NCBI RefSeq assembly: GCF_900107665.1
Contig: NZ_FNQT01000005.1
Span: 1-64,000, forward strand
Direction of reading: 5' to 3'
Length of the DNA: 64,000 nucleotides
DNA from: Haloplanus vescus
GTDB lineage: Archaea > Halobacteriota > Halobacteria > Halobacteriales > Haloferacaceae
Positions 219 to 16,273 of this stretch are shown here, in pieces. The translations under genes were made by a program, and so were the position numbers. The notes beneath the pieces were generated by a model. That model was not told where the DNA came from, searched no databases, and worked only from the letters and a program-made list of their open reading frames with translations. Position 1 is the first letter of the stretch. Each line of letters starts with the position of its first letter.

Positions 219-3200
219 ATGACTCTCCAGCAGATCACCGCATCCGATATTGCGGGCTGGGACTCTTTACAGGATATAGCGAACTCCTTTGAAAAACGCG
301 GGCTCAAACCACGCCCGAAACTTGGGGGCGATAACGAACTCGTAGTCCAGCTTGATGATGACGAATTCATCGTCATTGTCAATGCTGGCCCCGGTGAGAC
401 TGCCACGGACTTCAAACCGAAAAATCGCTCACGGCATACCAACCTTGTTGCCACCAACGATTTCGAGACCTTCACCTTCATTACGCGAGTCCGAAGCTGG
501 GAGGGGCAGCAGCACGGTCGAATTAAGCATCAAAAGATTTCGTTCTCGAAGGAGCAGTTCACGCGGGACAGCGGAGAGAAGAACACAATTCTCCAGAAGC
601 TGAACTCGATCGAGTACGGTTCCTCTGCTGCGATATACGATACGCTCTACGACACGCAACAGGTCGTCAAGGAGTTCTATGAACAGTTTGAGGAACTCCG
701 GACTGATCTCATTCAAGAAGTTACAGGCATCCCTGATGATCGTGGTGATGCGAAGCAACGATATGTGCAGGTCATTCTTGACCGGATGATCTTCCTATAC
801 TTCATCCAGGAAAAACGCCTTCTTGATCGGAACCCGAATTACCTTCACGAACAGCCGAATGAAGTCGTCGACGAGGGGGGAGACCACTACGAAGAGTTCT
901 ACGAACCGCTCTTTTTCGAATACCTAGCAGAAGACAAGCAGAACCCTGACTTCGGTAGTCTTCCGTACCTGAACGGTGGCTTGTTTGCAAGGAATCCTGT
1001 CGAAGAGGAGTTCCAAGACGCGAAGTTAGGTGGTCCTGCCGAGAAAACGAACGAGCTCTTCGACGATATCCTCGACTTCCTCTCCGACTGGAACTGGAAC
1101 GTAGACGAACGACTCGACATCGTCGATCCCAAGAACCTCTCCCCGGCGATCTTGGGCCACATCTTCGAGCAAACGGTCAATCAGAAGGAGATGGGGGCGT
1201 ACTACACACCAGAAGAGATCACGGGGTTCATGGCCCGACGGACGATCCATCCGTATCTGCTCGATCAACTCAACGAGGCTGTGGACGCGGACTACGACGA
1301 GATCGACAATGTGTTCGGATTCCCCGTGCCTGAGGCAGATACTAGCACAGAAGCTGTTGCCGATGGCGGAACCATAACCCAGCAAGTTCCAACGGAAAAC
1401 GTCCAGACCTGCCATGTGGAGACTCTCTACCACGACATTCTGAAGGAAGCGCATATTCTCGATCCCGCCGTAGGAAGTGGTGCCTTCCTGCTCGCCGCAC
1501 AGGAGGTGCTAATGGACCTATACATGCAATGCATTGAGTATTTCCAGCGGCTCGAAGCTGAAGGGCAAGGCTGGGAGCTGGAGACTCGTAGTCGTGAGGA
1601 ATTAGAACGTATCGAGGGTGGGCATGGTGGGGAGTCGCTATACGCCAAACGCTCGATTATTCTGGATAACCTCTACGGGGTGGATATCGACGAAGGCGCT
1701 GTGGAGATCTGTAAACTTCGGTTGTGGCTCTCGATGGTTGCGGATATCGAAGACGAGCCAGGGGAGGTCGAACCGCTCCCGAATATTGATTTCAACATCC
1801 GGCAGGGGAACAGTCTAATTGGATTTACAGACCTCATCGAAACCGTCAACGAAGAGGGTGATACCTCACTCACAAATTATGGCATCGGTGAAGAACCACC
1901 GGTCAGCGAGTATTACGAGGACGTGATCCACGCTCAGCGGAAACACAAACGGGCAAGTTCCTCGAAAGAAGCAACCAACGCCCGTCGTCAGGCAGAGTCA
2001 CTCATCACCAGCTACAGTCAGAATCTGGACAACAAGGTGCTAGATGAGTTCCATAATGCCGGTGCTGAAATCACTCTGGATCAAGTTCAAGAATTCCACC
2101 CCTTTCATTGGATTCTTGAATTCGCGCTAGTCTACGACCAGGGAGGTTTTGATCTCATTATCGGGAATCCCCCTTGGGATCAGCTCCGAGCAAGCCGCGA
2201 CGATTACTTCGTCAAGTTTGATGAGCAGTTCCGGTCCCGGATGCCTTCGAATAAGGACGAGATGCAGAAACAGCTGCTGGAAGACGAGGACATTGCCGAG
2301 GGATGGGAGGAGTATCAAGAGCAGATAGAGAAGCAAATGCGGTACTTCACTGATGGTTCTGAATACATCCTCCAGAAACCTGTTATTGATGGACGGAAGG
2401 ATCCAAATGAAAACAATCTTGCGGCACTCTTCTTTGAGAGATTGTTCGAACTCGTGAGCGACGAGGGGTATGTAGCGCAAGTTCTACCTGGAGTGATGTT
2501 CAGTGGCTCTTTCTCGAAAGATCTCCGGATGAAACTTTTGAATGATGCGGAAATACAGTCGTTGGTTGGCTTCGAGAATCATGGAATATTCGGTGATCTT
2601 CATCGACAGTATCAGTTCGCTGTTCTCACGTTCAAGAACCAGGGGGAGTCGGAGCAAATCAAGGGAATATTCGATCAACATGATGTTTCTGTCCTCCGTC
2701 ATTTCGACGAGAACGCGGTTGAGATCCCACGAGAAGTACTAACCCAATATTCGTTGAAAGCGCGGATATTCCCCAATATTACCCATCCTGAGGAAGTGGG
2801 TATCTTGGAGAGTATTGTCTCACACCCTCCGTTGGGAGAAAAAATCGACAATAAATGGAACGTCACTCCGCACCGTGAACTGGATCGATCACGGGCGTCT
2901 GACCGCTTCGTCGAAGAGGAAAATGAAGGTGACTACCCTGTGTACGGTGGAGCAAACATTCACCAGTTCCAGCACGACAATACGTTCGATTCGAGTCTTG
3001 ATTCCCCTTCACTATGGAGTGTCGATGAAGATCAGCCTGATCTGAGCGCTAAATACCGTGTTCGGGAACGGGCGTACAACGGTGGAACGCCGAAAAAGAA
3101 CATATACGAAGCGTTTGGTGGACCGAAGACCAGCAAATCACAGAAGGGATTCGTCAACGATCTTCTTCAGGAACACCGTGGACAGGACCTCTGTATGGAT

Positions 3201-3842
3201 GACCTCCTTCCAGACTTCACGGAATACCGGATTATCTACCGAGATATCGCCCGACCTACCGACGAACGGACAATGATTTCGACTGTGTTACCCAAAGGGC
3301 TCGTTTGTGTTCACACACTCCAGACATTTTCGCCATATGAAGTCAATCCGGAGCAGGACGATCTCTCAGAGTATCCCCTACGTTCAATCTATGAACGTGC
3401 CTACGATGACGAGGAACTGTTTGTCATCACTGGTCTACTGAACAGCATTCCGTTCGATTACCTAATGCGGACGAAGGTCGATTCACACATTGTCCGGTTC
3501 AAACTAGAAGAATCACAGGTCCCGCGTCTCACAGAGGGGGACAACTGGTTCCACTATATTTCTGACCGGGCGGCCCGACTCAACTGCTACGGTAAGGAGT
3601 TCGAGGAGATGCGGGAACGGCTCGGCGGAATTGATCCCGCTAAAGAGGAATCAGAGCGTCGGCGACTTCAGGCCGAAGTTGATGCAGCTTCTTTCCACGC
3701 CTACGGACTCGATAGGGCGGAAATGCAGTTCGTTCTTGATGACTTTCATCGGGTGTCGAATCCTCGAATTATGACGGAAGCCTACATCGATAGGGTCGCT
3801 GAGAAATACACTCATCTTGGAGACGTAGGGCCAATGGAGTAA
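219..3842 (+). CDS. Eco57I/PglX-like adenine DNA methyltransferase, possibly type IIG
   Basis: The 1207-residue protein has the organisation of large restriction-modification or BREX-type N6-adenine methyltransferases. SAM-binding motif I is DPAVGSGAFL (Asp415), followed by YGVDIDEGAVEICKLRLWLS, and the catalytic motif IV is IIGNPPW (Asn650-Trp653). The N-terminal 300 residues form a helical or nuclease-like module typical of single-chain type IIG enzymes, and the C-terminal part after about 850 should hold target recognition. A TATA-like stretch about 25 bp upstream supports the ATG and a leaderless transcript. Codons 436-454 are duplicated in inverted orientation at 1-56, and a tyrosine recombinase gene follows, so the C-terminal half may be exchangeable. 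No pglZ, brxC or separate restriction gene is visible here. Methyltransferase assignment is secure; the restriction or BREX role is not. Confidence 0.88.
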   Translation: MTLQQITASDIAGWDSLQDIANSFEKRGLKPRPKLGGDNELVVQLDDDEFIVIVNAGPGETATDFKPKNRSRHTNLVATNDFETFTFITRVRSWEGQQHGRIKHQKISFSKEQFTRDSGEKNTILQKLNSIEYGSSAAIYDTLYDTQQVVKEFYEQFEELRTDLIQEVTGIPDDRGDAKQRYVQVILDRMIFLYFIQEKRLLDRNPNYLHEQPNEVVDEGGDHYEEFYEPLFFEYLAEDKQNPDFGSLPYLNGGLFARNPVEEEFQDAKLGGPAEKTNELFDDILDFLSDWNWNVDERLDIVDPKNLSPAILGHIFEQTVNQKEMGAYYTPEEITGFMARRTIHPYLLDQLNEAVDADYDEIDNVFGFPVPEADTSTEAVADGGTITQQVPTENVQTCHVETLYHDILKEAHILDPAVGSGAFLLAAQEVLMDLYMQCIEYFQRLEAEGQGWELETRSREELERIEGGHGGESLYAKRSIILDNLYGVDIDEGAVEICKLRLWLSMVADIEDEPGEVEPLPNIDFNIRQGNSLIGFTDLIETVNEEGDTSLTNYGIGEEPPVSEYYEDVIHAQRKHKRASSSKEATNARRQAESLITSYSQNLDNKVLDEFHNAGAEITLDQVQEFHPFHWILEFALVYDQGGFDLIIGNPPWDQLRASRDDYFVKFDEQFRSRMPSNKDEMQKQLLEDEDIAEGWEEYQEQIEKQMRYFTDGSEYILQKPVIDGRKDPNENNLAALFFERLFELVSDEGYVAQVLPGVMFSGSFSKDLRMKLLNDAEIQSLVGFENHGIFGDLHRQYQFAVLTFKNQGESEQIKGIFDQHDVSVLRHFDENAVEIPREVLTQYSLKARIFPNITHPEEVGILESIVSHPPLGEKIDNKWNVTPHRELDRSRASDRFVEEENEGDYPVYGGANIHQFQHDNTFDSSLDSPSLWSVDEDQPDLSAKYRVRERAYNGGTPKKNIYEAFGGPKTSKSQKGFVNDLLQEHRGQDLCMDDLLPDFTEYRIIYRDIARPTDERTMISTVLPKGLVCVHTLQTFSPYEVNPEQDDLSEYPLRSIYERAYDDEELFVITGLLNSIPFDYLMRTKVDSHIVRFKLEESQVPRLTEGDNWFHYISDRAARLNCYGKEFEEMRERLGGIDPAKEESERRRLQAEVDAASFHAYGLDRAEMQFVLDDFHRVSNPRIMTEAYIDRVAEKYTHLGDVGPME
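1524..1579 (+). repeat. Internal arm of the 56-bp inverted repeat
   Basis: This is the coding-strand partner of the copy at 1-56, identical over 56 bp. It lies between SAM-binding motif I (Asp415) and the catalytic NPPW (Asn650) of the methyltransferase, and carries the palindrome CAATGCATTG at 1527-1536 next to the repeat edge. Recombination between the two arms would flip the 1.47 kb between them (promoter, start codon and first 435 codons) and join it to a different 3' half. The match is directly visible. The switching is inferred. Confidence 0.85.
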
Positions 3843-5259: not shown

Positions 5260-5316
5260 TCCAGTTCGCTCCTTCTCAAAGAGACCGATTAATTGTATCC
5301 AGTATCAAACCCAGTT

Positions 5317-5751
5317 ATGGTAGAAATATCAGACCCCCTGTGTTCGCTTTTCACTGCGAAAATTAAGGAGGAGGATGGCACATCCGTGATCGAGATTCCT
5401 CCGAGTGAGATCAAGCATGGGGCGCTGACTGTTGATGAAACGTACCGCATCGCTCTTCTTGATTCATCCTCCGAAGCTGAATCAACATCTCCACAGAGCC
5501 CACGGCATCCCGCCTCTCAGGAAAGCACGAGCCATGATTCATCTGGTCCTCCTGTTGATGAGGGAGAAGTGCGCGACGTGACAATCGAAACCGTCGGCGA
5601 TCAGGGCGATGGTATCGCAAAAGTCGAACGTGGCTACGTCGTGATCGTTCCCGGCGCTCAGCCCGGCGACGAGCCAACAGTCGAAATCGAACAAGTTCAG
5701 GAGAACGTCGCGTTTGCGAGCATCGTCGATAGCGATCCGCGAGCACTCTAA
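5317..5751 (+). CDS. TRAM-domain protein, putative RNA-binding
   Basis: The last 60 residues (VTIETVGDQGDGIAKVERGY... VPGAQPGDEPTVEIEQV... AFASIV) form a TRAM domain, a small beta-barrel that binds RNA. Stand-alone TRAM proteins act as RNA chaperones in archaea. The first half is a short domain of about 45 residues and a low-complexity Ser/Pro linker. Translation could begin at a TTG at 5293, but the ATG at 5317 (MVEISDPL) is preceded at about 25 bp by an AT-rich box (GATTAATTGTA) and is preferred. No operon partner is evident. Confidence 0.8.
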   Translation: MVEISDPLCSLFTAKIKEEDGTSVIEIPPSEIKHGALTVDETYRIALLDSSSEAESTSPQSPRHPASQESTSHDSSGPPVDEGEVRDVTIETVGDQGDGIAKVERGYVVIVPGAQPGDEPTVEIEQVQENVAFASIVDSDPRAL

Positions 5752-5875
5752 CCCATTGTCCCTTCTGTGGATCGGTCTTCTTCTCGGTAAACCATCGGTG
5801 TGAGAAGGCTCCGTTCGAGTTTGTCTAATGGAGGTGGTTCTGAAAGTCACGTCACGTTTTCTTCACGCGTTCGCG

Positions 5876-6181
5876 ATGGCACAACCTTCCAAGGCCGATA
5901 TTCAATCTATGACAAAGGAACCGATTGAGGTACTCGACGACCTGGCCGACCAGGTCGCCGATGAGTTCGAGGCGTATAGACAGCCGGACGAATTCAAGGA
6001 TGTCTCGCTCGTGATTGAGAACAGCGACGAGGAACATCCGACGCTGATCGTCCACGTTGATAGAGCGGACGCGGAGTCCCTTGCCGACCGTATTGATGAG
6101 TTCCTCCGCGAGCACGGTGCTCGTACTGAACGGGAACGACACTCAGCTACGGATGTCCGTGTGTTAGCGACGGTCGACTGA
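5876..6181 (+). CDS. Small acidic hypothetical protein
   Basis: A 101-residue protein from the ATG at 5876 (MAQPSKAD). An in-frame ATG at 5828 would add a 16-residue hydrophobic-basic stretch that looks untranslated. The chain is acidic, alternates helix and strand (VSLVIENSDEEHPTLIVHVDRADAESLADRIDEFL), and has no cysteines or recognisable active site. The layout is consistent with a small alpha/beta fold, but the family is unknown to me. A run of six T lies 16 bp past the stop, suitable for archaeal termination. Confidence 0.6.
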   Translation: MAQPSKADIQSMTKEPIEVLDDLADQVADEFEAYRQPDEFKDVSLVIENSDEEHPTLIVHVDRADAESLADRIDEFLREHGARTERERHSATDVRVLATVD

Positions 6182-6196
6182 CAACCGCCCCTCCAA

Positions 6197-6202
6197 TTTT
6201 TT
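6197..6202 (+). terminator. Oligo-T terminator
   Basis: Six consecutive T residues lie 16-21 bp downstream of the stop at 6181 in a GC-rich neighbourhood, just before a convergent gene. U-tracts of this kind end archaeal transcription. No hairpin is needed or seen. Confidence 0.4.
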
Positions 6203-6266
6203 GACTGACTCCAAGCACCGCTGAAGGGCCTTATCTTCCCTTCCGGTCAGGGGAGTCCCGACCGAT

Positions 6267-6962
6267 TCAGCTCAGGTGATCAATCTGTGCAGACAGATAC
6301 TCTTGGAGAGCGGTGACCGTTTCTTCTGAGACAGCTGAGGCCCCGAAGTCACTCCGAAATCCGTGTTTGAGTTCGTCACTCTCCAAGATCTCCAGACCAC
6401 GCTCAAGTTGCTCCCGGAGCTCATCGTCGTCCCCTCGCCGCAGGTGGGGTGTGACAGCGTCGAGGTCGATCTCTTCAGCCACTGCCAAGACGTCCCGAAG
6501 GTCCGTTTCTCGGCCGCTGTGGAGCTTTGCAGCCACGAGGACTGCCCCATCGATGACTCTAGCCGTCGTCGTCACTGTGCCCCCGCTCACCTCCTGTTGG
6601 TGGCTGTGGTCGTACAGGTAGTTGAACGACCACTGTGCCTCGGTCTGACGACACCCGAGTCCGTTCACCAAGAGGTCGAAGCCGATCGGCTGTTGCGGCG
6701 TGAGCCGCTTTTCGTACTCGATCACCTCTGTATCGTAGAACCACTCCTTGGCATGGCTGTCCGTTTTCTCGAATCCCCGCTGTTCGAGGAACTCGACGAA
6801 GTCAGCTTTGGAGTCCGGTGCGACGACGATATCGAGGTCCGTGGAGAAGCGAGCATTGAACGCTGAGACAGCGTACCCGCCGACGAGAACGTACTCGTGG
6901 CCCTCTTGGGTGAGCTCCTCGAGCAGTTCGATGAGCGCGTCACTTCGGTTGTTGAAGCTCAT
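6267..6962 (-). CDS. AbiEii-like nucleotidyltransferase, putative toxin
   Basis: A 231-residue nucleotidyltransferase-fold protein. The signature reads VLVGGYAVSAFNARFSTDLD: the GG turn plus the D-x-D metal pair (STDLDIVV) of the DNA polymerase beta superfamily, as in AbiEii/MenT toxins, which add nucleotides to tRNA or related acceptors. The later segment AAKLHSGRETDLRDVLAVAE matches the helical part in which Lys and Arg/Asp contact nucleotide. Its ATG overlaps the stop of the upstream winged-helix gene by four bases, so the two are co-transcribed and probably form a toxin-antitoxin unit. A decayed relative lies at 17743-17990. The fold is secure; the toxin role is inferred from pairing. Confidence 0.82.
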   Translation of the reverse strand: MSFNNRSDALIELLEELTQEGHEYVLVGGYAVSAFNARFSTDLDIVVAPDSKADFVEFLEQRGFEKTDSHAKEWFYDTEVIEYEKRLTPQQPIGFDLLVNGLGCRQTEAQWSFNYLYDHSHQQEVSGGTVTTTARVIDGAVLVAAKLHSGRETDLRDVLAVAEEIDLDAVTPHLRRGDDDELREQLERGLEILESDELKHGFRSDFGASAVSEETVTALQEYLSAQIDHLS

Positions 6963-7633
6963 GGTTGTGCCCGTTCGATCTCTCGATACGTGACGCCGAG
7001 GTCGAGGTCCTCGTACATCCGGTCGAGCATCGCGAGCGCCGACTGGAACTGGGCGTAGTTCTCACGCATATACTCGATCGTCTCTGCTCTCGAGATCACC
7101 GGGTACCCCTCGACATGCTCGATGTCGAGTGAGGGGCGTGGCTCGAGGACGATCTGTAGCGGTCCGTCCAACTCGTCTCGGGGCTGCCGTTCGAATGTGG
7201 TGGGGAGGCTGAACGACTCGAAAAACGCTTCCCAGGCGTCGACGTCCCGCTCACGGACGGCCAGGAACAGCGGATAGTCATCCGGATTCCGCCCAACTTG
7301 GTAGCCACCTTGGGTCCACACGTAGACGCCATCGATCCGCGTGAACGCGAACGGCCAGTCGCCGAATTGTGGGATGACGTAGGACTCCTCGATGGTGGGT
7401 GGACTGACGCCGGCGCTGGCAGCGACGAGCTCGCGAGCTGCGTCGCGCACGCGCTCGTCGACGACAGTGAGGCCGTCGTCATATGAAACGTAGCCTGCGT
7501 CTTCCAGCCGATTGACGGCCTGTCTCACTGTCTCGTAGGGCGTGTGGAGGTGTTGGGCGACACGGCGGATGGAGTCACCACTCTCGATGGTGAGGATGAC
7601 CTGCGCCGCGGTGTCGTCGAGCACCTCATACAT
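6959..7633 (-). CDS. Winged-helix regulator paired with nucleotidyltransferase
   Basis: The N-terminal 70 residues are a winged-helix domain (ILTIESGDSIRRVAQHLHTPYETVRQAVNRLEDAGYV). The remaining 150 residues are an alpha/beta region without recognisable catalytic motifs, comparable in layout to AbiEi-type antitoxins. I place the start at the ATG at 7633 rather than 7693, because a TATA-like box and an inverted repeat sit immediately upstream and would otherwise be coding. The gene overlaps the nucleotidyltransferase by ATGA. The operator between TATA and start suggests negative autoregulation, as in toxin-antitoxin operons. The protein could also be a plain regulator; the pairing is the main argument for antitoxin. 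Confidence 0.75.
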   Translation of the reverse strand: MYEVLDDTAAQVILTIESGDSIRRVAQHLHTPYETVRQAVNRLEDAGYVSYDDGLTVVDERVRDAARELVAASAGVSPPTIEESYVIPQFGDWPFAFTRIDGVYVWTQGGYQVGRNPDDYPLFLAVRERDVDAWEAFFESFSLPTTFERQPRDELDGPLQIVLEPRPSLDIEHVEGYPVISRAETIEYMRENYAQFQSALAMLDRMYEDLDLGVTYREIERAQP

Positions 7634-7639
7634 CTGGTG

Positions 7640-7669
7640 GTTACCAATAATCCGGTAACAGTTAAAAGC
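7640..7669 (-). promoter_or_regulatory. TATA box and operator of the winged-helix/NTase operon
   Basis: On the minus strand a TATA-like element (GCTTTTAAC, 7661-7669) lies about 28-36 bp before the ATG at 7633. Between the two is a perfect inverted repeat, GTTACC-N8-GGTAAC (7640-7659). A repressor bound there would block transcription-complex assembly. The encoded winged-helix protein is the natural ligand, though binding is inferred. Confidence 0.6.
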
Positions 7670-7689
7670 CTTACTGGACCCACTATCTT

Positions 7690-9048
7690 TCAAGCCTGCT
7701 CTTCACTCTGGGGCATCTCTGTCGCGTATTGTTCAGCTAAATCGACTACGTCGTAGACGTGAATTCCAGTTTTGAACCACAGCACTCGATCGGCGGCGCT
7801 CCCGAACTCCTCGCTCGCACAATCCAGTTGCTCCGAGACAGCCAGTACGAAATTGTCGGCCTCTACCTTTCGAATCTTCTCCAGCTTTGCGTCCAGATAC
7901 TCGGGTGTCCAGAAGCCGACGATCTCGAGGATCGCTCGCCTGCCATCGGGATGTTCGATTGCGAAGTCGGGGATCATCACCTCGGCACCCAGATCGAAGA
8001 CATCGTCTTCCCGCACCAGCTCCCAATCCGTATTCGCTCGCTCCCACTTCCGGGTGAGTGTCCGCTCGACATCGCTATCGAACTGGTCGCCGGCACTGTA
8101 GTGTGAATCGAGGTCCTCCGTGTGGTCGAGCGCGAACTGTCGCGTCGCGCCGGTCGTCTCGTCGACGAGGATCTCGGCAACCATCTCCCAGCGGTCACAG
8201 AGGGGCAACGCCGGCAGGAAGTTCGCCATGCGAATCCCGTACTTTTGTGATTTCGAGAACAGCGACGCCGGGCCGTCCAGTACTGCCTCATAGCCGGCGG
8301 CCTGATCCGTACTCGGGACACGCTCGCCATCGGCGTCGATCGGATAGATGCGATGCATTAACCCGAACAGCTTCACGTAGCTGAACACCGTCCCAAAGTG
8401 GTCCCAGACCCGAATCCGCATTTCCGTCGCATCGTAGAGCACCGCCTGGGCGAGCGCGAGGTTGTAGCGGGTCAACAACCAGTCCACGGTGAGATCCGTG
8501 TGTTCGTACTCCGCATCGCTGCTGCCGGTCAGATTGGTCGTCGACGTCTCGTCATCACTGGCGTACTGGTCGGCCGTCCGCGTGCCGATTCGGACGAGCC
8601 GTTTGTTGTCTTCGAGATCGGCATACATCCCGCGATAGCACTCCTCGAGCGACACCCCGAGGTCGTCGGCGACCGCGCTGTACACCTCCAGTTTCTGTGT
8701 GTCCTCGCCGAGCGTCGGCTGGCGGACGATTGGATAGCGCTCGTTGGCTTTCTCGAAGAGTCGCCGGCGGATCTCGCGCGGTTCGACGGAGGCCACGACC
8801 TCGAACTCACACTTGTCTTTCAGGAGTTTCGCCAGCCCTTGGACGATCTTGTAGTCGGTATCTGCGACGGTCAGCTCGTCAATCGCGTCCTCGAGGTCGC
8901 CTTTCGGCTCGCCAAGGTGGTTCTCGAACAGCTGGATGAGTTCTCGAGCGGTCTGTCGGTAGCGCTCCTCGTCGGGATCGATGAACAGCGGGGTGACCGT
9001 CTCGTCGGTCGTGCGCGAGCGTGCGAGGTCAGCCGTCAGCACTGGCAC
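7690..9048 (-). CDS. Bax1-like nuclease (DUF790), partner of XPB
   Basis: The 452-residue protein matches archaeal Bax1 (DUF790): an N-terminal helical region with a conserved MYADLEDNKRL-type segment, a central part (LLTRYNLALAQAVLYDATEM), and a C-terminal PD-(D/E)xK-like core with PDFAIEH (about 360) and LEIVGFWTPEYL (about 374-385). In characterised archaea Bax1 forms a complex with the XPB helicase and cuts DNA at bubble or fork junctions, a step resembling nucleotide excision repair. It overlaps the upstream XPB gene by 20 bp, so the pair is translated together. The catalytic acidic residues appear intact. Confidence 0.88.
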   Translation of the reverse strand: MPVLTADLARSRTTDETVTPLFIDPDEERYRQTARELIQLFENHLGEPKGDLEDAIDELTVADTDYKIVQGLAKLLKDKCEFEVVASVEPREIRRRLFEKANERYPIVRQPTLGEDTQKLEVYSAVADDLGVSLEECYRGMYADLEDNKRLVRIGTRTADQYASDDETSTTNLTGSSDAEYEHTDLTVDWLLTRYNLALAQAVLYDATEMRIRVWDHFGTVFSYVKLFGLMHRIYPIDADGERVPSTDQAAGYEAVLDGPASLFSKSQKYGIRMANFLPALPLCDRWEMVAEILVDETTGATRQFALDHTEDLDSHYSAGDQFDSDVERTLTRKWERANTDWELVREDDVFDLGAEVMIPDFAIEHPDGRRAILEIVGFWTPEYLDAKLEKIRKVEADNFVLAVSEQLDCASEEFGSAADRVLWFKTGIHVYDVVDLAEQYATEMPQSEEQA

Positions 9049-10441
9049 TCACCCCCTCCCGGCGGCGTTGCGAAACGTAGGTCTCCATCGTGTCCTCGGT
9101 GATAATTTCGTAAAGCCGCGCTGGCTGGCGGTCATCCGTCGGTCGAAGAATGCGCCCGAGTCGTTGAGCGTACTGGCGTTTTGAGGCGCTCCCCGAGAGG
9201 ATGATCCCGACGTTTGCCGCCGGGACATCGATCCCCTCGTCGAGAACCTGCGAGGTCACGAGCATCGAGTATTCGCCGGTCCGGAATCGCTCGAGGATTT
9301 CGGTGCGTTCGTCGGTCTTGGTCTGGTGGGTGATGCAGGGGACGATGAACTCCCGAGAAATGTCGTAGGCGAAGTCGTTGTTGGCGGTAAAGATGATCGC
9401 GCGGTCGTCGTGATGGCGCTTGATGAGATTGTCGAGCGTGTCGAGCTTCTTCTCTGCTGTTCGGGCGATCCGCTCGGCGCGATGCTTGGCGATGAGCGCC
9501 CGCCGCCCCTGTGGATCGTAGGAGGTGCGCTTGAGGAACTCCTGGTAGCCCTCCTCTTTCCAGAGATCGAACTCGTAGCTGTCGACGTAGTCCCGATAGA
9601 TCTGATACTCTTCGTCGTACTGCTCGCGCTCATCGGCCGTGAGATCGACCGACATGTGGATTGTTTCGTACTCGCTGAGGTATTCACCGGCGAGTTCGTC
9701 GACGTCCTCCCGGTAGACGACCGGGCCGAGGAGGTCCTCGAGGAGTTCGTGCTTGCCGTCGGGCCGCTCGTACGTGGCGGTCAGCCCGAGGCGATACGGC
9801 GCGATCATCATCTCGGGGATCTGCCGGTAGGTCGGAGCTGGCAGGTGGTGTTCCTCGTCGACGACAAGTAGGCCGAACTGATCGCCGTACTCGTTGACGT
9901 AGCGGTAGGCGCTGTCGTAGGTGGTGACGGTGATCGCAGTGATGTCGTGGCTGCCGCCGCCGAGGACGCCGATCGGCTCCGAGAGTTGGTCTCCGAAGGC
10001 GTTGGTGAGCGTGGCGTGCCACTGATTCATGAGGTCGATCGTCGGCGTCACGACGAGCGTGCTGACGCCAGCGTCGGCGATGGCCTGCAGCCCGAGGAAC
10101 GTCTTCCCGCTGCCCGTGGGGAGCACGACACTCCCTCGCCGATCGTAGTCGATCCAGGCGTCGAGCGCGGCCTGCTGGTAGTCACGCGGTTCGATGTGGA
10201 GCGCTGGCGTGAGTTCGAGATCGGGGTAGGCCCGCGCGGCGTCTTCGAGAGTGTGAGCGAAGCCCTCTTGCAACGTTGCCTGCTCGTTTCCGTCCGTCCA
10301 CTCGCCGGCCCACTCGAGCAGGGCTCGATATCGATATGCTCGGGTTCGGTACTCGTCGACGCGGTCGTCCCACTCCCCATAGGGAACATCGTCGGGAGCA
10401 TTACGGAGCAGGAGCGTTCCGTCGTCGAATTCGATTCGCAT
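9029..10441 (-). CDS. XPB/Rad25-family DNA helicase
   Basis: A superfamily 2 helicase of 470 residues. An N-terminal damage-recognition-type region precedes Walker A LPTGSGKT (about 107-114), then motif II DEEHH (195-199), motif III GLTAT (219-223), a thumb-like insertion (240-330), motif V VTSQVLDEGIDVP and motif VI QRLGRILRP. This order matches archaeal XPB, which unwinds damaged DNA with Bax1. The Bax1 gene follows with a 20-bp overlap. Haloarchaea commonly carry XPB on chromosomes and on megaplasmids, so its presence among mobile and defence genes may reflect either repair or defence use. Gene assignment is firm. Confidence 0.9.
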   Translation of the reverse strand: MRIEFDDGTLLLRNAPDDVPYGEWDDRVDEYRTRAYRYRALLEWAGEWTDGNEQATLQEGFAHTLEDAARAYPDLELTPALHIEPRDYQQAALDAWIDYDRRGSVVLPTGSGKTFLGLQAIADAGVSTLVVTPTIDLMNQWHATLTNAFGDQLSEPIGVLGGGSHDITAITVTTYDSAYRYVNEYGDQFGLLVVDEEHHLPAPTYRQIPEMMIAPYRLGLTATYERPDGKHELLEDLLGPVVYREDVDELAGEYLSEYETIHMSVDLTADEREQYDEEYQIYRDYVDSYEFDLWKEEGYQEFLKRTSYDPQGRRALIAKHRAERIARTAEKKLDTLDNLIKRHHDDRAIIFTANNDFAYDISREFIVPCITHQTKTDERTEILERFRTGEYSMLVTSQVLDEGIDVPAANVGIILSGSASKRQYAQRLGRILRPTDDRQPARLYEIITEDTMETYVSQRRREGVSASADG

Positions 10442-10516
10442 TCAGTATCACCTCGGACGTTCCCGACCGGATTCAATATGTGGGTTGTCCGGGATCTGGT
10501 GAAGCACGTCTCTGTC

Positions 10517-10545
10517 CTTCGATAGTTGAGGATTTTCTATCGAGG
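10517..10545 (-). terminator. Hairpin after the CcbP-like gene
   Basis: An inverted repeat (TCGATAG at 10519-10525 and CTATCGA at 10537-10543, 11-nt loop) lies a few bases past the stop of the minus-strand gene that ends at 10556. The loop contains an A/T-rich run. It is placed as a terminator or 3'-end structure; a function in the XPB leader is less likely. Confidence 0.35.
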
Positions 10546-10555
10546 GGCTTGGTTG

Positions 10556-10912
10556 TCAGCGATCGAGCCAGTACTGCCAGTCCGCGATCGCTTGGTCCGT
10601 GTTACTACTGGCCTCGATCGGCTCCAGTTGCTCCAGTGGCACGCCAAGTTCTCTGCCCATCCACTCGATCGTCACGAACATCTGGTTGAGAGTCGGATCT
10701 GTTGGGGACATTCCAACCACGCGTACCGTTTCGCCTTCCTCTAGGGGTGACTCCTCTCGCTCGGTGACACAGCACGCTTCGAACGGAAAGTCTATCGTGT
10801 CGTCCAGATACGCGTACCATCCCCACGCCTGCTCTTCTGGGCTGTAGGTATCAACGATGATGCGCATCTTGATGCGCTCTTCCCGCTCCTCGTCCTTCTC
10901 GGCCCGCGTCAT
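10556..10912 (-). CDS. CcbP-like calcium-binding protein
   Basis: A small acidic protein of 118 residues with the block WGWYAYLDDTIDFPFEACC, which I recognise from the CcbP calcium-binding family (Anabaena CcbP). The second block EGETVRVVGMSPTD looks like a small SH3-like barrel strand pair. The ATG at 10912 is chosen over an in-frame GTG at 10921; an AT-rich box (GAATATCTTG on the minus strand) sits 26-38 bp before it. In cyanobacteria CcbP buffers Ca2+. In haloarchaea the role is unknown. It is separate from XPB by about 115 bp. Confidence 0.65.
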   Translation of the reverse strand: MTRAEKDEEREERIKMRIIVDTYSPEEQAWGWYAYLDDTIDFPFEACCVTEREESPLEEGETVRVVGMSPTDPTLNQMFVTIEWMGRELGVPLEQLEPIEASSNTDQAIADWQYWLDR

Positions 10913-10921
10913 GCTGACCAC

Positions 10922-11352
10922 TACTCATTCCGATTTCAAGATATTCGGGGTGGCCGAAACCACTCCTCCACCGATGCAGGACGCGCTCAATCATGGTCGT
11001 GGAACCGCTCCGAGTCGCTGGACAAAGTTAACCAACGAATGCTCGACAGATCTGTATACTGTTGGTTAATCTGGAGGATGGGATTGTCTGATACAGATTA
11101 GGGTCGCTCTTTACCGGTGGTTCGACCGAACTGCGCGGCGAACCACCGGTACTCGAAGGCACTAATCCGTATGAGTTGTGCGAGCAGATGGACGCGGACG
11201 GCAGGGGAGCGTGTCGCAAAATCAAAGAACTCTACAACGGATTATCCAGAAACGCGACTTCCACGGCATAACTTCATTTATCTGAGCTTGAGTCCCGATC
11301 CAAGTCTGTGGCAGTACCTTCACGTATCGGCCGGCCATCATCTGGAGATACT
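10922..11352. other. Intergenic region with two inverted repeats
   Basis: This stretch of about 430 bp has no convincing gene. It contains two dyads: TTAACCAAC (11028-11036) with GTTGGTTAA (11061-11069), and the 13-bp arm TACCGGTGGTTCG (11112-11124) with its exact complement at 11139-11151 around a 14-nt loop. A short ATG reading frame crosses it but shows no haloarchaeal composition. The region may hold a structured RNA or the remains of a mobile element. Confidence 0.5.
11112..11151. repeat. 13-bp perfect inverted repeat
   Basis: The arms TACCGGTGGTTCG (11112-11124) and CGAACCACCGGTA (11139-11151) are fully complementary and separated by 14 bases. Transcribed from either strand, this would make a very stable stem. 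It lies between divergent genes starting at 10912 (minus) and 11353 (plus), so terminator, attenuator, small RNA and transposon end are all possible. Confidence 0.6.
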
Positions 11353-11978: not shown

Positions 11979-12449
11979 TCAGGAACGGCCACAGCCGGTT
12001 CCTGCCCGGCCGCGGACCGTAGACTCGCCGACTTTGCTCCGCTGGCTCGCCGCCCGTTCAATCGCGTCGTCGAACTCGTCTGGATCCCAGTCGACGATCT
12101 CAGCGCCGTTTTCTTTCAACTTATCAGGGATGTCCTCGTCGGAGATATCGTCATCGACCTTGATTGCGACTAGGCCGTTGCCTTCCTTGAGCGAGCGCTC
12201 AACCTCGTAATCGACCCAGTCGCTGTCCTTCGTGTTCTCGCCGACCATGACGACGGTGACCGAGGTACCTTTCATTTCGTCCCGGATGCAGCTACGGATG
12301 TAGTCGTCGTTTGTGCTGTCTACGGGGTCAAGGAGGTGTCGGTCGTGGAAGGAGACATCGACGTTGTTGTTCCAGCGGAGCAGCCGGAAGCCTTTCGCTT
12401 TCATGCGGTCGCTTCCTTCGTAACTGATGAAGACGCGGCGGGTCGGCAT
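11979..12449 (-). CDS. TIR-like domain protein (ThsB/MTH538-type)
   Basis: The first 120 residues read as a TIR-like Rossmannoid domain of the MTH538/DUF1863 class: RRVFISYEGSD at the first strand, a WNNNVDVSFHDRHLL block, IRDEMKGTSVTVVMVGENT, and the DSDWVDYEVERSL helix with the acidic residue expected near the NAD-handling pocket. Proteins of this class include ThsB of Thoeris, which senses phage and makes a nucleotide signal. The C-terminal 35 residues are low-complexity. It is the last gene of a four-gene operon, 44 bp after the 2-TM SLATT gene. A TATA-like stretch (12475-12489, minus strand) may give it its own promoter. NADase or cyclase activity is inferred, not shown. Confidence 0.78.
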   Translation of the reverse strand: MPTRRVFISYEGSDRMKAKGFRLLRWNNNVDVSFHDRHLLDPVDSTNDDYIRSCIRDEMKGTSVTVVMVGENTKDSDWVDYEVERSLKEGNGLVAIKVDDDISDEDIPDKLKENGAEIVDWDPDEFDDAIERAASQRSKVGESTVRGRAGTGCGRS

Positions 12450-12493: not shown

Positions 12494-12931
12494 CTAGGCC
12501 TCTTGTGCCTTTCGCGTAGTAATCTCCCAATACCGGTTTTCCTGGCTGGTGAGCGCCAGCACCCGCTTGACGAACACCCGCTCAGGGTCGTCTACACCCT
12601 CGTACTCATCCGTCCGCGTCTTGAACATCTGCTCTTCCCGCCGCAGGCCTTCGGCGGTGGTTCGGTAGTTCATCCACTTCTTCTGATAGTTGAGATAGGA
12701 TTCGAGTGCCTCCAAGATGATAAGCAGGACCGCAGCGATGATGATTGTGTTCTTCCAGACCGTGCTGCTCGTCACAGGGAACAGTGACACGGCGACAGGT
12801 AGGATGGCGGCCAGCACGATCTGTGCGCCCTTCATTAACCGATGCATCCATTTGTTACGAACCGCCTTGTCGTCATACCACTCGAACTGTCCTTCGTAGA
12901 ACTCGTAGAATTCGTCGAAATTATCTACCAT
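12494..12931 (-). CDS. DUF4231/SLATT-type 2-TM membrane protein
   Basis: A 145-residue protein from the ATG at 12931 (MVDNFDEFYEF). It has an N-terminal charged helix (EGQFEWYDDKAVRNKWMHRL), two transmembrane helices (IVLAAILPVAVSLF and TIIIAAVLLIILEALESYL), then a long charged helix (WMNYRTTAEGLRREEQMF). This is the plan of SLATT/DUF4231 proteins, predicted pore-forming effectors that accompany nucleotide-signal sensors in bacterial and archaeal defence. An upstream in-frame ATG (12970) would overlap the MazG-like gene and is not preferred. Placed 17 bp after the MazG-like gene and 44 bp before the TIR gene, it is the likely effector of the cassette. Confidence 0.75.
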   Translation of the reverse strand: MVDNFDEFYEFYEGQFEWYDDKAVRNKWMHRLMKGAQIVLAAILPVAVSLFPVTSSTVWKNTIIIAAVLLIILEALESYLNYQKKWMNYRTTAEGLRREEQMFKTRTDEYEGVDDPERVFVKRVLALTSQENRYWEITTRKAQEA

Positions 12932-12947
12932 CGGTAAGGCTCCACGG

Positions 12948-13523
12948 TCACAGAATCGACTCTTCCTCAATCTTCGTCCACCGGTCGTCCAGCAGTGCTT
13001 CGAGGTCGACGTCCAGATTCTCCGCGGCGATGAGCAGATCCGAGACGATCTCGACGGTCTCCTCCTCGAGCAGTTCCCGGGTGTTCATCGGCTCCATGTG
13101 GTCGAGGGATTCCATCGCATTCGACATGCTGCCGGCAGGCGCGGCCATCCGCTGGAACAGCCAGTCCTGGACCTCCTCCGAATCCATCGGGTCGTCAGCT
13201 GGATCCAGCTGTTCCGCCCATTCTGCGACGCCCTCGGCTTCGATCCCGAACATCTCCTCCAGCTGCGCCTGAAGGTCCAGGTTGAGCGTGTTCGCCGCCG
13301 CGAGGGCGACGATGAAGCTGTCCGCCAGCGTCTTTTCGAGTTGTTCCATCCGCGTCTCCTCGTCGGCGTAGTCTCGGGAGAGGCGGCCTACGTATTTTGA
13401 GAAGTGCAGTACGTAATGGTTCATCCTGTCGGGATAGGGGAGCGTGTAGACATCCCGGTGATGTCCTTCGTCGTGCTCCTGCTGCCGTTTCTGCAGGTCA
13501 AGGAGGTCTGGGGAGTCGGTCAT
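12948..13523 (-). CDS. Degenerate, duplicated MazG-like protein
   Basis: The 191-residue helical protein resembles all-alpha NTP pyrophosphatases of the MazG type. Repeat one carries DRMNHYVLHFSKYVGRL followed by EKTLADSFIVALAAANTLNLDL; repeat two carries EEETVEIVSDLLIAAENLDVDLEALL. The usual metal-binding E-E-x-G-E helix is replaced by SKYVGRL in repeat one, so catalysis is doubtful there, while the E-x2-D pair of the second helix survives. It overlaps the upstream zinc-ribbon gene by ATGA, and the SLATT gene follows 17 bp later. It may bind or degrade a nucleotide signal, or act only as a scaffold. The assignment rests on motif pattern. Confidence 0.6.
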   Translation of the reverse strand: MTDSPDLLDLQKRQQEHDEGHHRDVYTLPYPDRMNHYVLHFSKYVGRLSRDYADEETRMEQLEKTLADSFIVALAAANTLNLDLQAQLEEMFGIEAEGVAEWAEQLDPADDPMDSEEVQDWLFQRMAAPAGSMSNAMESLDHMEPMNTRELLEEETVEIVSDLLIAAENLDVDLEALLDDRWTKIEEESIL

Positions 13524-14407
13524 GCGTTGATCGCTCGGTCGGGAATAACCCCGCCTCCATTATCACAGTTAGGGCACAGTTTCAGCGGGGCCTCGTTCTC
13601 GAACTCATGCTCGCAGAGCAGGCAGAACCAGTCGGACACGCCTCTAGAGGTGATACGATCGAGATCGACGTCGAACTCGTCGACCTTCTGCTCTAGGATT
13701 TCCTTATTGCCGTCATCCTCATCCGTGGTCGCCATCTCGACGTAGTTCTCCACGGACTCCCAGTCGAAACTGTCCTCCCGCTCCCAGGTCGGGTACCGGT
13801 ACTCGTGGTACCGCTTGTTGATCCGTTCCAGCCGGCGGATCTCCTCGATGTACCGCTCAGAATAATCCTCGCGGTCGTGGAGGAGGGCGAGGAGGTCGGC
13901 GGTCCGGTCGGGACCGACCAGCTTCTTCCGGAACCCGCTCTGGATCCCGTCGAATCCTGTCTCCTCGGCGACGGTCTCGAAACTGATCGGTGGATAGACC
14001 CAGTGCATCTCGTCGGCCACCAGTCGATAATCATCCTGAATGCTACCGTCCCGGTAGTTGGTGAGCAGTGGCCAGCCCAAGGAGTGCCAGCCGATGTGGT
14101 AGTATCCGGCGAGGTGGCGGTCGCCGTGGTAGTTGGTGCAAAAGAAGAGATAGGGGCGGTCGTTCTTGACCAGGCCGGAGCGGATGTCCCGGGTGCAGGT
14201 AGAGCAGAGGCCGTAACTCATCGTTTCGAGGTTCGGATCGCTCTTGTTGTCGTTGACCTTGGTGACCTCTCGGACCGGATACTTGCTGATGTCGTCCTCG
14301 CAGTAGTAGAGCGTCAGATAGCTCTTGGCGTCCTCCGATGCGTCATGCTCCTCCCACGGGTCGTTGGGGGGCATGAAGTCGCGTGCAGCATCGGAATCAT
14401 ATCTCAT
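13520..14407 (-). CDS. Zinc-ribbon protein heading the TIR/SLATT operon
   Basis: A 295-residue protein with two cysteine sites: C68-x2-C71 near the middle of an alpha/beta N-terminal domain, and a C-terminal zinc ribbon CX2C-X12-CX2C (C261, C264, C277, C280). The N-terminal stretch RPYLFFCTNYHG... LAGYYHIGWHSLG recalls small PUA/EVE/Nmad-like barrels that read modified bases, but I cannot confirm this. It is the first gene of the operon and overlaps the MazG-like gene by four bases. Its promoter faces that of the divergent hypermodification-like gene across 120 bp. As the only cassette member with a plausible nucleic-acid-binding surface, it is the best candidate sensor. Confidence 0.65.
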   Translation of the reverse strand: MRYDSDAARDFMPPNDPWEEHDASEDAKSYLTLYYCEDDISKYPVREVTKVNDNKSDPNLETMSYGLCSTCTRDIRSGLVKNDRPYLFFCTNYHGDRHLAGYYHIGWHSLGWPLLTNYRDGSIQDDYRLVADEMHWVYPPISFETVAEETGFDGIQSGFRKKLVGPDRTADLLALLHDREDYSERYIEEIRRLERINKRYHEYRYPTWEREDSFDWESVENYVEMATTDEDDGNKEILEQKVDEFDVDLDRITSRGVSDWFCLLCEHEFENEAPLKLCPNCDNGGGVIPDRAINA

Positions 14408-14527
14408 ACTACGTAGAGATGCGATCCTCCGGCCGCCTAAAGGTTTCTCCGCATGAATGTTCGCTCGGTAAAACGGGTTCCCGTAAGATTCAATGAGTCA
14501 ACGGCTGGTTTTCACAGCATACGAGTA

Positions 14528-15544
14528 ATGTCTCAATCCTTAACGAAGCCCGACGAGATCAGGGATAGTCTCGACGAAGATACGCTTGACCTGTTCTGGC
14601 GGTTCATCACCGAACGTCAGCAGGTGTGGTATCGTCGGGTGGTCGAGGGGCAGCAGTCGCCGTGGACGGACGACGATATTCTCCAAGAATACCGCTTCAC
14701 GAACGTTTATCGCGAGCTCGATCCCGGGACGCAGTACGTCATCCAGCACATCCTCGAGGTCGATGCGTCCCGGCAGGACAAGATCTTTAATGTGATGCTG
14801 TACCGGTTGATCGGCCGGCTGGAGACGCACGACTATCTCGGGTTCCAGTCGCTCGACGACTTCGACGCGGCCGAGTTTGAGGCCCAGTTGAAACATCGGC
14901 GCGACGAGCTGGACGAGACAGTGTTCACCGGGGCGTACATGGTCAGCGGCTACAACCACATGGGGTCATCCGACAAAGTCGAGAACGTGGCTGCGCTCTT
15001 CGACGAGCTCACCGCGGACTCCAACTTCTTCGACCAGGCGCTCGCAGCCGACTCGCTGGAGGATGCCTACGACCTGATCCGGGCGCAACCTGGGTTCGGG
15101 AACTTTCTCTCCTACCAGACCCTTGTGGACCTCCTGTATCCCGTCGATTTCTACGACGGTGATAGCGTACTCTCGTTCTCACCTGACGACTGGTCGTCAC
15201 CGGGACCGGGCGCGCAGAAGGGATTGAAGCAACTTGTCACCGAGTTCAACGGATTCGACCGGCTTGCCGTAATGCGGTGGCTACGCCAGCACCAGCAAGA
15301 GGAGTTCGACCGGCTTGATTTGGATTTTCCCTTCCTGGAAACGGAGGCGGGCGACCCGCTGGAACTGTCGCTGGCGAACATCCAGAACTGTCTCTGCGAG
15401 TTCTACAAGTACCACAAGATCCTGCACTCGAACGGCCGTGCCCGCCGATGCTTCCGGGACTCCGAGGCCCGGTCCGGAAACGAGCTGCGGAGCATCTACG
15501 AAACGGCACCACACATCCGGGTTCCGGAACGGAGCAAGATATAA
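14528..15544 (+). CDS. 5-hmdU kinase helical / thymine pyrophosphorylase-like protein
   Basis: From the ATG at 14528 (MSQSLTKPDE) the protein has 338 residues. The segment LFWRFITERQQVWYRRV, then SPWTDDDILQEYRFTNVYRELD, is the signature I associate with the HMUDK helical / alpha-glutamyl-putrescinyl-thymine pyrophosphorylase family, which installs or handles hypermodified thymines in phage DNA. Cellular members occur near defence genes. A second conserved patch is TGAYMVSGYNHMGSSDKVENV. No kinase P-loop is seen, so only the helical or pyrophosphorylase part is present. It is divergent from the TIR/SLATT operon and followed 45 bp later by an unknown gene. Family confidence is moderate; biological role is inferred. 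Confidence 0.7.
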   Translation: MSQSLTKPDEIRDSLDEDTLDLFWRFITERQQVWYRRVVEGQQSPWTDDDILQEYRFTNVYRELDPGTQYVIQHILEVDASRQDKIFNVMLYRLIGRLETHDYLGFQSLDDFDAAEFEAQLKHRRDELDETVFTGAYMVSGYNHMGSSDKVENVAALFDELTADSNFFDQALAADSLEDAYDLIRAQPGFGNFLSYQTLVDLLYPVDFYDGDSVLSFSPDDWSSPGPGAQKGLKQLVTEFNGFDRLAVMRWLRQHQQEEFDRLDLDFPFLETEAGDPLELSLANIQNCLCEFYKYHKILHSNGRARRCFRDSEARSGNELRSIYETAPHIRVPERSKI

Positions 15545-15589
15545 ATCCGGCAGTCCGTAAGCGGAGGTAAGTGGTGTCTATCATGGCAC

Positions 15590-16273
15590 GTGACGAAGTT
15601 CAGCTTGGAGATCGTCGCTAAAAACGACAAAGTAAAGATCAATCTCCCGGGTGATCGGACGTTCGGTATCACTTCCACTTCTAGTGGGGCTGCGTTCATC
15701 CCGGACTGGAACGATCGTCATTTGACTTGGGCGGCCGACGAGGATACGGGTGCGCCGTTCCAGCACGTCACCGACGAGACGCGAGAGGAGCCAGTCGCGA
15801 AGGTCGAGTACGGGTCCGAGGACGAGTACCTGTACGAGATGTACAGCGCCTACGGCGCGTTCGGTCAGTTGAAGCCAGCGAACTGGGTGAACGCCGATTA
15901 TCTCTGGGAACTCGACGTGGATGCCTACGGTGAGGTCCTCGAGGAGGCCGGTGTCATGGAGCGTAGCGACACCCGGCTGTGGTTCAGCTTTACCCGCCTG
16001 AAAGAGTTCATCGAGGACCTGGCCGACGACAAGGAGGCGTTCGTCGAGTTCTTCGATCGTGTCTACGATAAGGTCGAGCAGCGCGAAGCGTGGGAGAGCG
16101 ATTCACGCCTCTTCTTCACGCCCGGCCTGGAGAATCTGGTCCTGCAGCGACCGGACGGGTACGTGATGGAGCTGCCGATGGCGGACCCAGTCAACGTGTT
16201 CGACCGAATGCGGAGCGCCCGTTCTGTCGACGTGATGTGCCAGATGTTCAAGGATCCGCCTCTTTCGGCCTGA
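15590..16273 (+). CDS. Unknown partner of the hypermodification-like gene
   Basis: A 227-residue protein starting at a GTG (15590). A nearby ATG at 15583 is in another frame and gives only a short peptide. The N-terminal third looks beta-stranded (FSLEIVAKNDKVKINLPGDRTFGI), the middle is aromatic (YEMYSAYGAFGQLKPANWVNADYLWEL), and the rest is helical and acidic. No cysteine ligand, membrane segment or known motif is visible. The 45-bp spacing behind the previous gene suggests one transcript. I do not recognise the family. Confidence 0.65.
   Translation: MTKFSLEIVAKNDKVKINLPGDRTFGITSTSSGAAFIPDWNDRHLTWAADEDTGAPFQHVTDETREEPVAKVEYGSEDEYLYEMYSAYGAFGQLKPANWVNADYLWELDVDAYGEVLEEAGVMERSDTRLWFSFTRLKEFIEDLADDKEAFVEFFDRVYDKVEQREAWESDSRLFFTPGLENLVLQRPDGYVMELPMADPVNVFDRMRSARSVDVMCQMFKDPPLSA

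Follow-up and report, generated by a model that had tools for sequence, protein, structure and literature searches.

A 5-hydroxymethyl-dU DNA kinase homologue linked to a divergent TIR–SLATT operon in a mobile haloarchaeal gene cassette

The stretch of DNA that was analysed (64,000 nucleotides of Haloplanus vescus contig NZ_FNQT01000005.1, here called the window) carries a host-encoded homologue of the phage 5-hydroxymethyl-dU (5hmdU) DNA kinases, transcribed divergently from a four-gene operon whose last two genes encode a SLATT and a TIR protein. The five genes form one unit that has moved between haloarchaeal families, and on balance we favour the view that they are a mobile antiviral cassette, in which the kinase homologue (HMUDK) and a dUTPase-fold protein would form a module working on uracil-derived pyrimidines that gates killing by TIR and SLATT. 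The cassette and the gene that follows it comprise the following features (window coordinates):

14528..15544, + strand: HMUDK_hel protein, 338 aa, homologue of the phage 5-hydroxymethyl-dU DNA kinases (PF18723 profile)
14408..14527, no strand: divergent promoter region between the kinase gene and the TIR operon, 120 bp (spacing kept across loci)
13520..14407, − strand: operon gene 1, 295 aa, C-terminal zinc ribbon (weak Zn_ribbon_11 match, invariant Cys)
12948..13523, − strand: operon gene 2, 191 aa, predicted dimeric-dUTPase/MazG-type all-alpha fold (AF2 model and structure matches)
12494..12940, − strand: operon gene 3, SLATT/DUF4231 two-transmembrane protein, predicted membrane effector (PF14015, E = 8.9e-28)
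11979..12449, − strand: operon gene 4, ThsB-like TIR protein, 156 aa, C-terminal GCGR(S) tail (PF08937, E = 4.9e-20)
15590-16273: gene after the kinase gene, GTG start, no family match

The product of 14528-15544 matches the Pfam family HMUDK_hel (PF18723) with E = 6.5e-68 and 229.6 bits (cut-off 25), in an alignment that spans positions 3-278 of the 281 in the profile, and it is also matched by PHROG 2396 (E = 1.4e-55). This whole-domain match in a profile search, far over the cut-off, confirms the first-pass annotation, which had placed the gene in the HMUDK-helical family, and judging from its sequence the protein is a full-length member of the 5-hmdU DNA kinase family, the only PF18723 protein in the genome. 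The start at ATG 14528 is backed by close homologues, though the reading frame could open at ATG 14453. In an alignment of host and phage proteins, the window kinase has the family residue in all 28 columns that are conserved in at least 17 of the 20 rows, and the residues kept include R30, R62, D65, D201, G226, G228, C290, E291, and K294. Homologues are present in 440 phage records, PhiW-14 among them, and the identity between the window kinase and its phage homologues, including those of PhiW-14, SBSphiC, Epa5, and PhaxI, is 24-31%.

The homology to the phage 5hmdU DNA kinases (PF18723; M6, ViI, PhiW-14, and SP10 type) thus covers the whole length, with the family-conserved residues common to both, but unlike these the window form is encoded by the host beside TIR and SLATT genes, and lacks accompanying genes for 5hmdU synthesis or downstream hypermodification. 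In vitro, a related kinase from a phage transfers phosphate to the hydroxymethyl group of 5hmdU within DNA (PMC7653180, PMC6449724). The analysis identified no 5hmdU-containing halovirus, the closest viral kinase homologues being about 31% identical, and a sequence-based search for solved HMUDK_hel structures gave no convincing match. The kinase tree groups the cassette kinases with the Haloarcula marina kinase in a single clade (support 100/100), which sides with most bacterial host forms and with SP10-like phages, the deep order being unsure.

Among the 392 genomes of the order, PF18723 was found in nine and operon gene 1 in seven, with gene 2 in the same seven. Genes 1 and 2 thus occur in precisely those seven genomes that also have a full-length close kinase; these span four families, and all of them show the same divergent five-gene order. 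The kinase relatives of Haloferax gibbonsii, H. elongans, Haloarchaeobius, and Halomarina are 59-82% identical to the window protein, and each lies beside the same set of four divergent genes, whereas the Natrinema kinase and that of one further genome (G378), both with about 30% identity, are without this operon. This G378 homologue, 30% identical and stand-alone, accounts for one of the remaining two PF18723 genomes, and a broken remnant with no operon (G381) for the other. TIR proteins scoring at least 310 bits against the cassette profile occur only in cassette genomes (293 genomes of the order), and the next best scores 63 bits. The two halves were therefore not found apart but in strict co-occurrence, in seven of 392 genomes, and the link between kinase and TIR operon suggested by the first-pass annotation is upheld. 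The remnant in G381 (L022:9078-9755) corresponds to residues 121-333 of the HMUDK protein, has an in-frame TGA, and without the TIR operon reads as cassette decay.

The boundaries of the unit are sharp. Blastn similarity between the window and four other cassette loci (L016-L019) starts at 11,981-12,022 and stops at 15,474-15,526, where the TIR gene and the kinase gene have their outer ends, and since it does not extend past them the cassette is the unit that was transferred. It reaches position 11979, beyond the region 14408-16273 to which the gene pair had first been assigned. In addition, an 11.3-kb block containing the cassette is 96.5% identical to a plasmid of Natronomonas gomsonensis. 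As this plasmid belongs to another genus, and the genome of the window to the same family as Haloferax, the match points to a recent transfer between lineages.

The gene that follows the kinase gene (15590-16273) had been described as unknown, and it is indeed present without any Pfam, PHROG or PADLOC match and without a meaningful NCBIfam match. It is absent (tblastn) from every other haloarchaeal copy examined, and a protein gene at this site was found elsewhere only on the near-identical N. gomsonensis plasmid. Because it is missing from the other copies, it is not part of the system, and it was rejected as a cassette gene.

Several cassette copies lie among other defence genes. The locus L019 has CBASS-type E1-E2/JAB and SAVED-TIR genes as neighbours, and L018 has Nmad3 and a second TIR. 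In Haloferax elongans, a 1253-aa nSTAND NTPase with no PADLOC match adjoins the cassette (L017:12865-16626). The window itself encodes a 1207-aa type IIG-like/Eco57I-type restriction-modification protein (219-3842) on the same plasmid-like segment, and a Bax1-like nuclease (DUF790) with an XPB-like helicase (7690-10441) adjoins the cassette, a pair that is common to the N. gomsonensis plasmid and not to the other cassette loci.

The intergenic region between the kinase gene and the operon (14408-14527) is exactly 120 bp, as the first reading of this DNA had it. Five other loci have a spacing of 115-119 bp, and the most distant locus has one of 91 bp. Its sequence can be aligned between genera for the 115-120-bp loci, with a mean column identity of 76%, the Halomarina copy having diverged. 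The first operon protein had been proposed as a reader of modified bases, a role that found no support here: there is no Pfam Nmad match, and hhalign, from few sequences, gave only 1.5% for Nmad2 and 0.6% for Nmad3. The sole recognisable part of gene 1 is a zinc ribbon formed by the invariant cysteines Cys262, Cys265, Cys278, and Cys281, with a weak match to Zn_ribbon_11 that is under the cut-off (E = 7.9e-4), and its AF2 model (pLDDT 47.8) is unusable.

Gene 2 gave a better model (pLDDT 87.9), by which the protein is assigned to the dimeric dUTPase/MazG superfamily fold. On structural re-alignment its top 14 matches are all dimeric dUTPases (Z 9.2-11.6), followed by MazG (about 6.5), and the dUTPases score higher than the unrelated structures, Foldseek alone being weak and values of Z under 13 calling for care with helical folds. 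The canonical ExxE...ExxD metal-binding motif is absent, for which reason we do not call the protein an active dUTPase; by sequence, the matching helices bear H36, H40, K43, and D68, which are invariant, bacterial homologues included, and the protein may bind nucleotides instead of hydrolysing them. Its bacterial homologues adjoin dCTP deaminase. No viral homologues of genes 1 and 2 were found, the weak phage matches of gene 2 being to Acinetobacter T4-like phages and one Pseudomonas phage (E 1e-4 to 4e-3). The Haloferax gibbonsii gene 2 (L015:6964-7629) has an in-frame tandem duplication of 30 residues, which spans an ambiguous base and is perhaps an assembly artefact. Gene 3 also matches NCBIfam SLATT_1 (99.1 bits, cut-off 41), and gene 4 the PADLOC ThsB model (E = 4e-20). 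When the TIR protein is aligned with ThsB structures, its invariant Glu82 (WVDYE motif) lies opposite the Glu of the WVRYEI motif.

Related arrangements are found in other archaea and in bacteria. Haloarcula marina retains the kinase (67%) and gene 2 (58%) in divergent orientation, with a dTMP kinase gene downstream of the kinase gene, and phosphopantetheinyl transferase, HTH, ImmA, and C1 peptidase genes replace those of the zinc-ribbon, SLATT, and TIR proteins, so that the effector half is swappable. Among 19 PF18723 plasmid neighbourhoods, 12 contain MazG or a member of the gene-2 family and 4 a TIR, nine combine an HTH/ImmA module and an acyl-carrier-like protein, frequently accompanied by a phosphopantetheinyl transferase, and several contain thymidylate-synthase-like proteins, dCTP deaminase or dTMP kinase. 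In bacterial TIR cassettes, the TIR gene is directly with Nmad2, plus the kinase in L042, L045, L046, and L149. In L146-L148, MazG and a uracil-DNA glycosylase (UDG) take the place of HMUDK (TIR-Nmad2-MazG-UDG at L146:1823-4256, L147:3025-4856, and L148:6634-8426), and these cassettes possibly represent a theme of defence directed at uracil in DNA. What the cassettes have in common is uracil or its 5-hydroxymethyl form.

These bacterial TIR-Nmad2-HMUDK and TIR-Nmad2-MazG-UDG cassettes (L042, L045, L046, L146-L149) resemble the window in placing a TIR by a uracil- or thymine-base enzyme, often with a MazG-type protein and a terminal Cys on the TIR. They differ in having Nmad2 for the zinc-ribbon protein and MazG-MazG_C for the dUTPase-fold protein, and in their separate TIR clade, and in the one candidate tested SLATT was not recognised with Pfam or NCBIfam. 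The TIR of the window is ThsB-like (PF08937, PADLOC ThsB models), as in Thoeris, but Pfam, NCBIfam, and PADLOC revealed no ThsA-type domain (SIR2-SLOG or TM-macro) among the cassette genes, and kinase-family, dUTPase-fold, and zinc-ribbon genes are added. As a ThsA partner (SIR2-SLOG or macro-domain) is lacking, the identification as Thoeris was rejected and the cassette is not filed there. TIR-SLATT pairs occur in firmicute phages, SLATT being a predicted membrane effector and both proteins defence effectors (PMC9503650). The adjacency of the two genes is shared with these pairs, whereas here they are locked to a base- or nucleotide-modification module across a divergent promoter region.

TIR and SLATT effectors were thus already known, and so, to go by the accessible portion of PMC13092281, was a 5-hydroxymethyluracil kinase domain in a defence system: that portion describes an E. 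coli DefensePredictor system with this domain and validated phage block, and according to a figure legend the systems shown there include TS, dNMP kinase, and NMAD domains as well. The likeness to the window rests on the shared domain as described there, not on gene order or sequence, and a DNA search found no E. coli relative of the kinase system. The same portion places aGPT-Pplase among predicted defence systems, does not go into the mechanism of the kinase system, does not describe the archaeal TIR-SLATT form, and cites Burroughs 2015; such cassettes may have been predicted earlier, especially in the latter work. A literature search, with papers on base hypermodification and nucleotide conflict largely outside its scope, gave no match for the archaeal five-gene form, the exact unit or the terminal-Cys signature.

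For the enzymatic activities, the substrate, trigger, and signal, the sequence of events, and the way in which the cell is killed we infer the following scheme. HMUDK and the dUTPase/MazG-fold protein would act on uracil-derived pyrimidines, the target most likely being 5-hydroxymethyl-dU, either within invading DNA or in the matching pool of nucleotides. On meeting such a base, HMUDK would phosphorylate it, and the base thus activated, or a product made from it, would be sensed by the zinc-ribbon protein, the dUTPase-fold protein or the TIR tail. Sensing would switch on the TIR as NADase or cyclase, and the TIR product, or the loss of NAD+, would open the SLATT membrane protein, so that the infected cell is stopped. 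The window cassette holds no 5hmdU-synthesis gene of the ThyA-family dUMP hydroxymethylase type, and the genome of the window has no PF00303 match for a ThyA-family thymidylate synthase, so the base would most probably come from the invader; a search of the genome for Tet/JBP hydroxylases gave no match, yet the control likewise gave none. The first-pass annotation had hypothesised a host system that responds to, or makes, modified thymine. The bacterial relatives, with thymidylate-synthase-like genes, dCTP deaminase, MazG, and Nmad2, agree with this, but for the window copy the lack of 5hmdU-synthesis and ThyA genes speaks against making, and responding to or processing the base fits better.

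The divergent gene arrangement would also suit a self-marking or toxin-antitoxin type of system, in which low-level thymine hypermodification by the host enzyme, or a modified nucleotide, restrains TIR-SLATT and an infection that removes or dilutes the mark frees the effector. The bacterial cassettes indeed encode what could plausibly be a pathway for modified nucleotides (dCTP deaminase, thymidylate-synthase-like protein, dTMP kinase, and kinase homologue), but with neither a hydroxymethylating enzyme in the window cassette nor a PF00303 thymidylate synthase in the genome there is no evident host substrate, and we regard host marking as rather unlikely. A soluble signal, with the kinase homologue phosphorylating a free modified nucleotide that would then serve as second messenger and activate SLATT or TIR directly, seems to us unlikely: the tested phage homologue works on 5hmdU in DNA (PMC7653180), and no ligand-binding domains besides SLATT and TIR were recognised in the cassette, although the partner proteins (dUTPase-fold, MazG, dTMP kinase) handle free nucleotides and nucleotide-derived signals are believed to gate SLATT proteins (PMC9503650).

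Given the many phage records with kinase homologues and a mobile cassette that adjoins other defence genes, the kinase could also be a captured viral gene, for example one for anti-restriction, that hitch-hikes in an island hotspot by an independent TIR-SLATT system. We consider this quite improbable, as the co-occurrence is complete (7/7), with identical order and similar spacing over four families, and bacterial TIR-Nmad2-kinase cassettes exist with a different gene order. Thymine hypermodification is a phage trick against restriction. If the five genes are a kinase-gated antiviral cassette, as we favour, the presence of a thymine-activating enzyme in mobile TIR/SLATT cassettes of archaea and bacteria would point to a widespread immune theme centred on uracil and hydroxymethyl-uracil.

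The TIR proteins of these cassettes have a further feature in common. All haloarchaeal copies end in GCGR or GCGRS, and the bacterial Nmad2-adjacent TIRs in SLTC, SGCAA, IKCN, RHPC, RNKC, TSRC, SNCAA or RHPCGARG. Of the 19 TIRs that lie near a marker gene, 18 have a Cys within the last five residues, the lone exception not adjoining its marker, as against none of 25 other ThsB-like TIRs, some of which are from the same loci as cassette TIRs (Fisher p = 1.8e-11, with sequences counted as independent and kinship ignored). A lone C-terminal Cys is seen in the TIRs of the window (11979-12449), L042, L045, L046, L141, L144, and L146-L149. The TIR tree places the cassette TIRs of haloarchaea and those of bacteria in different clades, and Cys-less TIRs group with the haloarchaeal clade (support 81/77); with this modest support, the shared cysteine is not simply the mark of one clade.

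All nine of the TIR-less cassettes examined, and also a tenth locus (L051) that has gene 2 and no kinase, encode a small acyl-carrier-like protein bearing a D/N-S motif; three of these ten proteins pass the PF00550 cut-off and one is a weak match, the rest being assigned by the D/N-S motif and a similar helix context. This suggests that the TIR tail Cys and the phosphopantetheine arm of the acyl-carrier protein both supply a flexible protein thiol. Phosphorylated 5-hydroxymethyl-uracil is an electrophile, from which phages displace the phosphate group with amines, and capture by a thiol is therefore a natural hypothesis. In this speculative scheme, to which we assign a low probability, 5hmdU activated by HMUDK would be captured by the C-terminal Cys of the TIR or by the acyl-carrier thiol, and the resulting DNA or nucleotide conjugate would be the activating event. 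The pattern of terminal Cys and carrier protein has the merit of offering a concrete chemical hypothesis that is testable by one mutant.

Finally, in Sphingosinicella and Erythrobacter (L104 and L105, about 5291-11221) an HMUDK homologue lies by plasmid-borne genes for DnaQ (exonuclease-domain), DnaE, and a methyltransferase, and this plasmid may replicate with modified bases.
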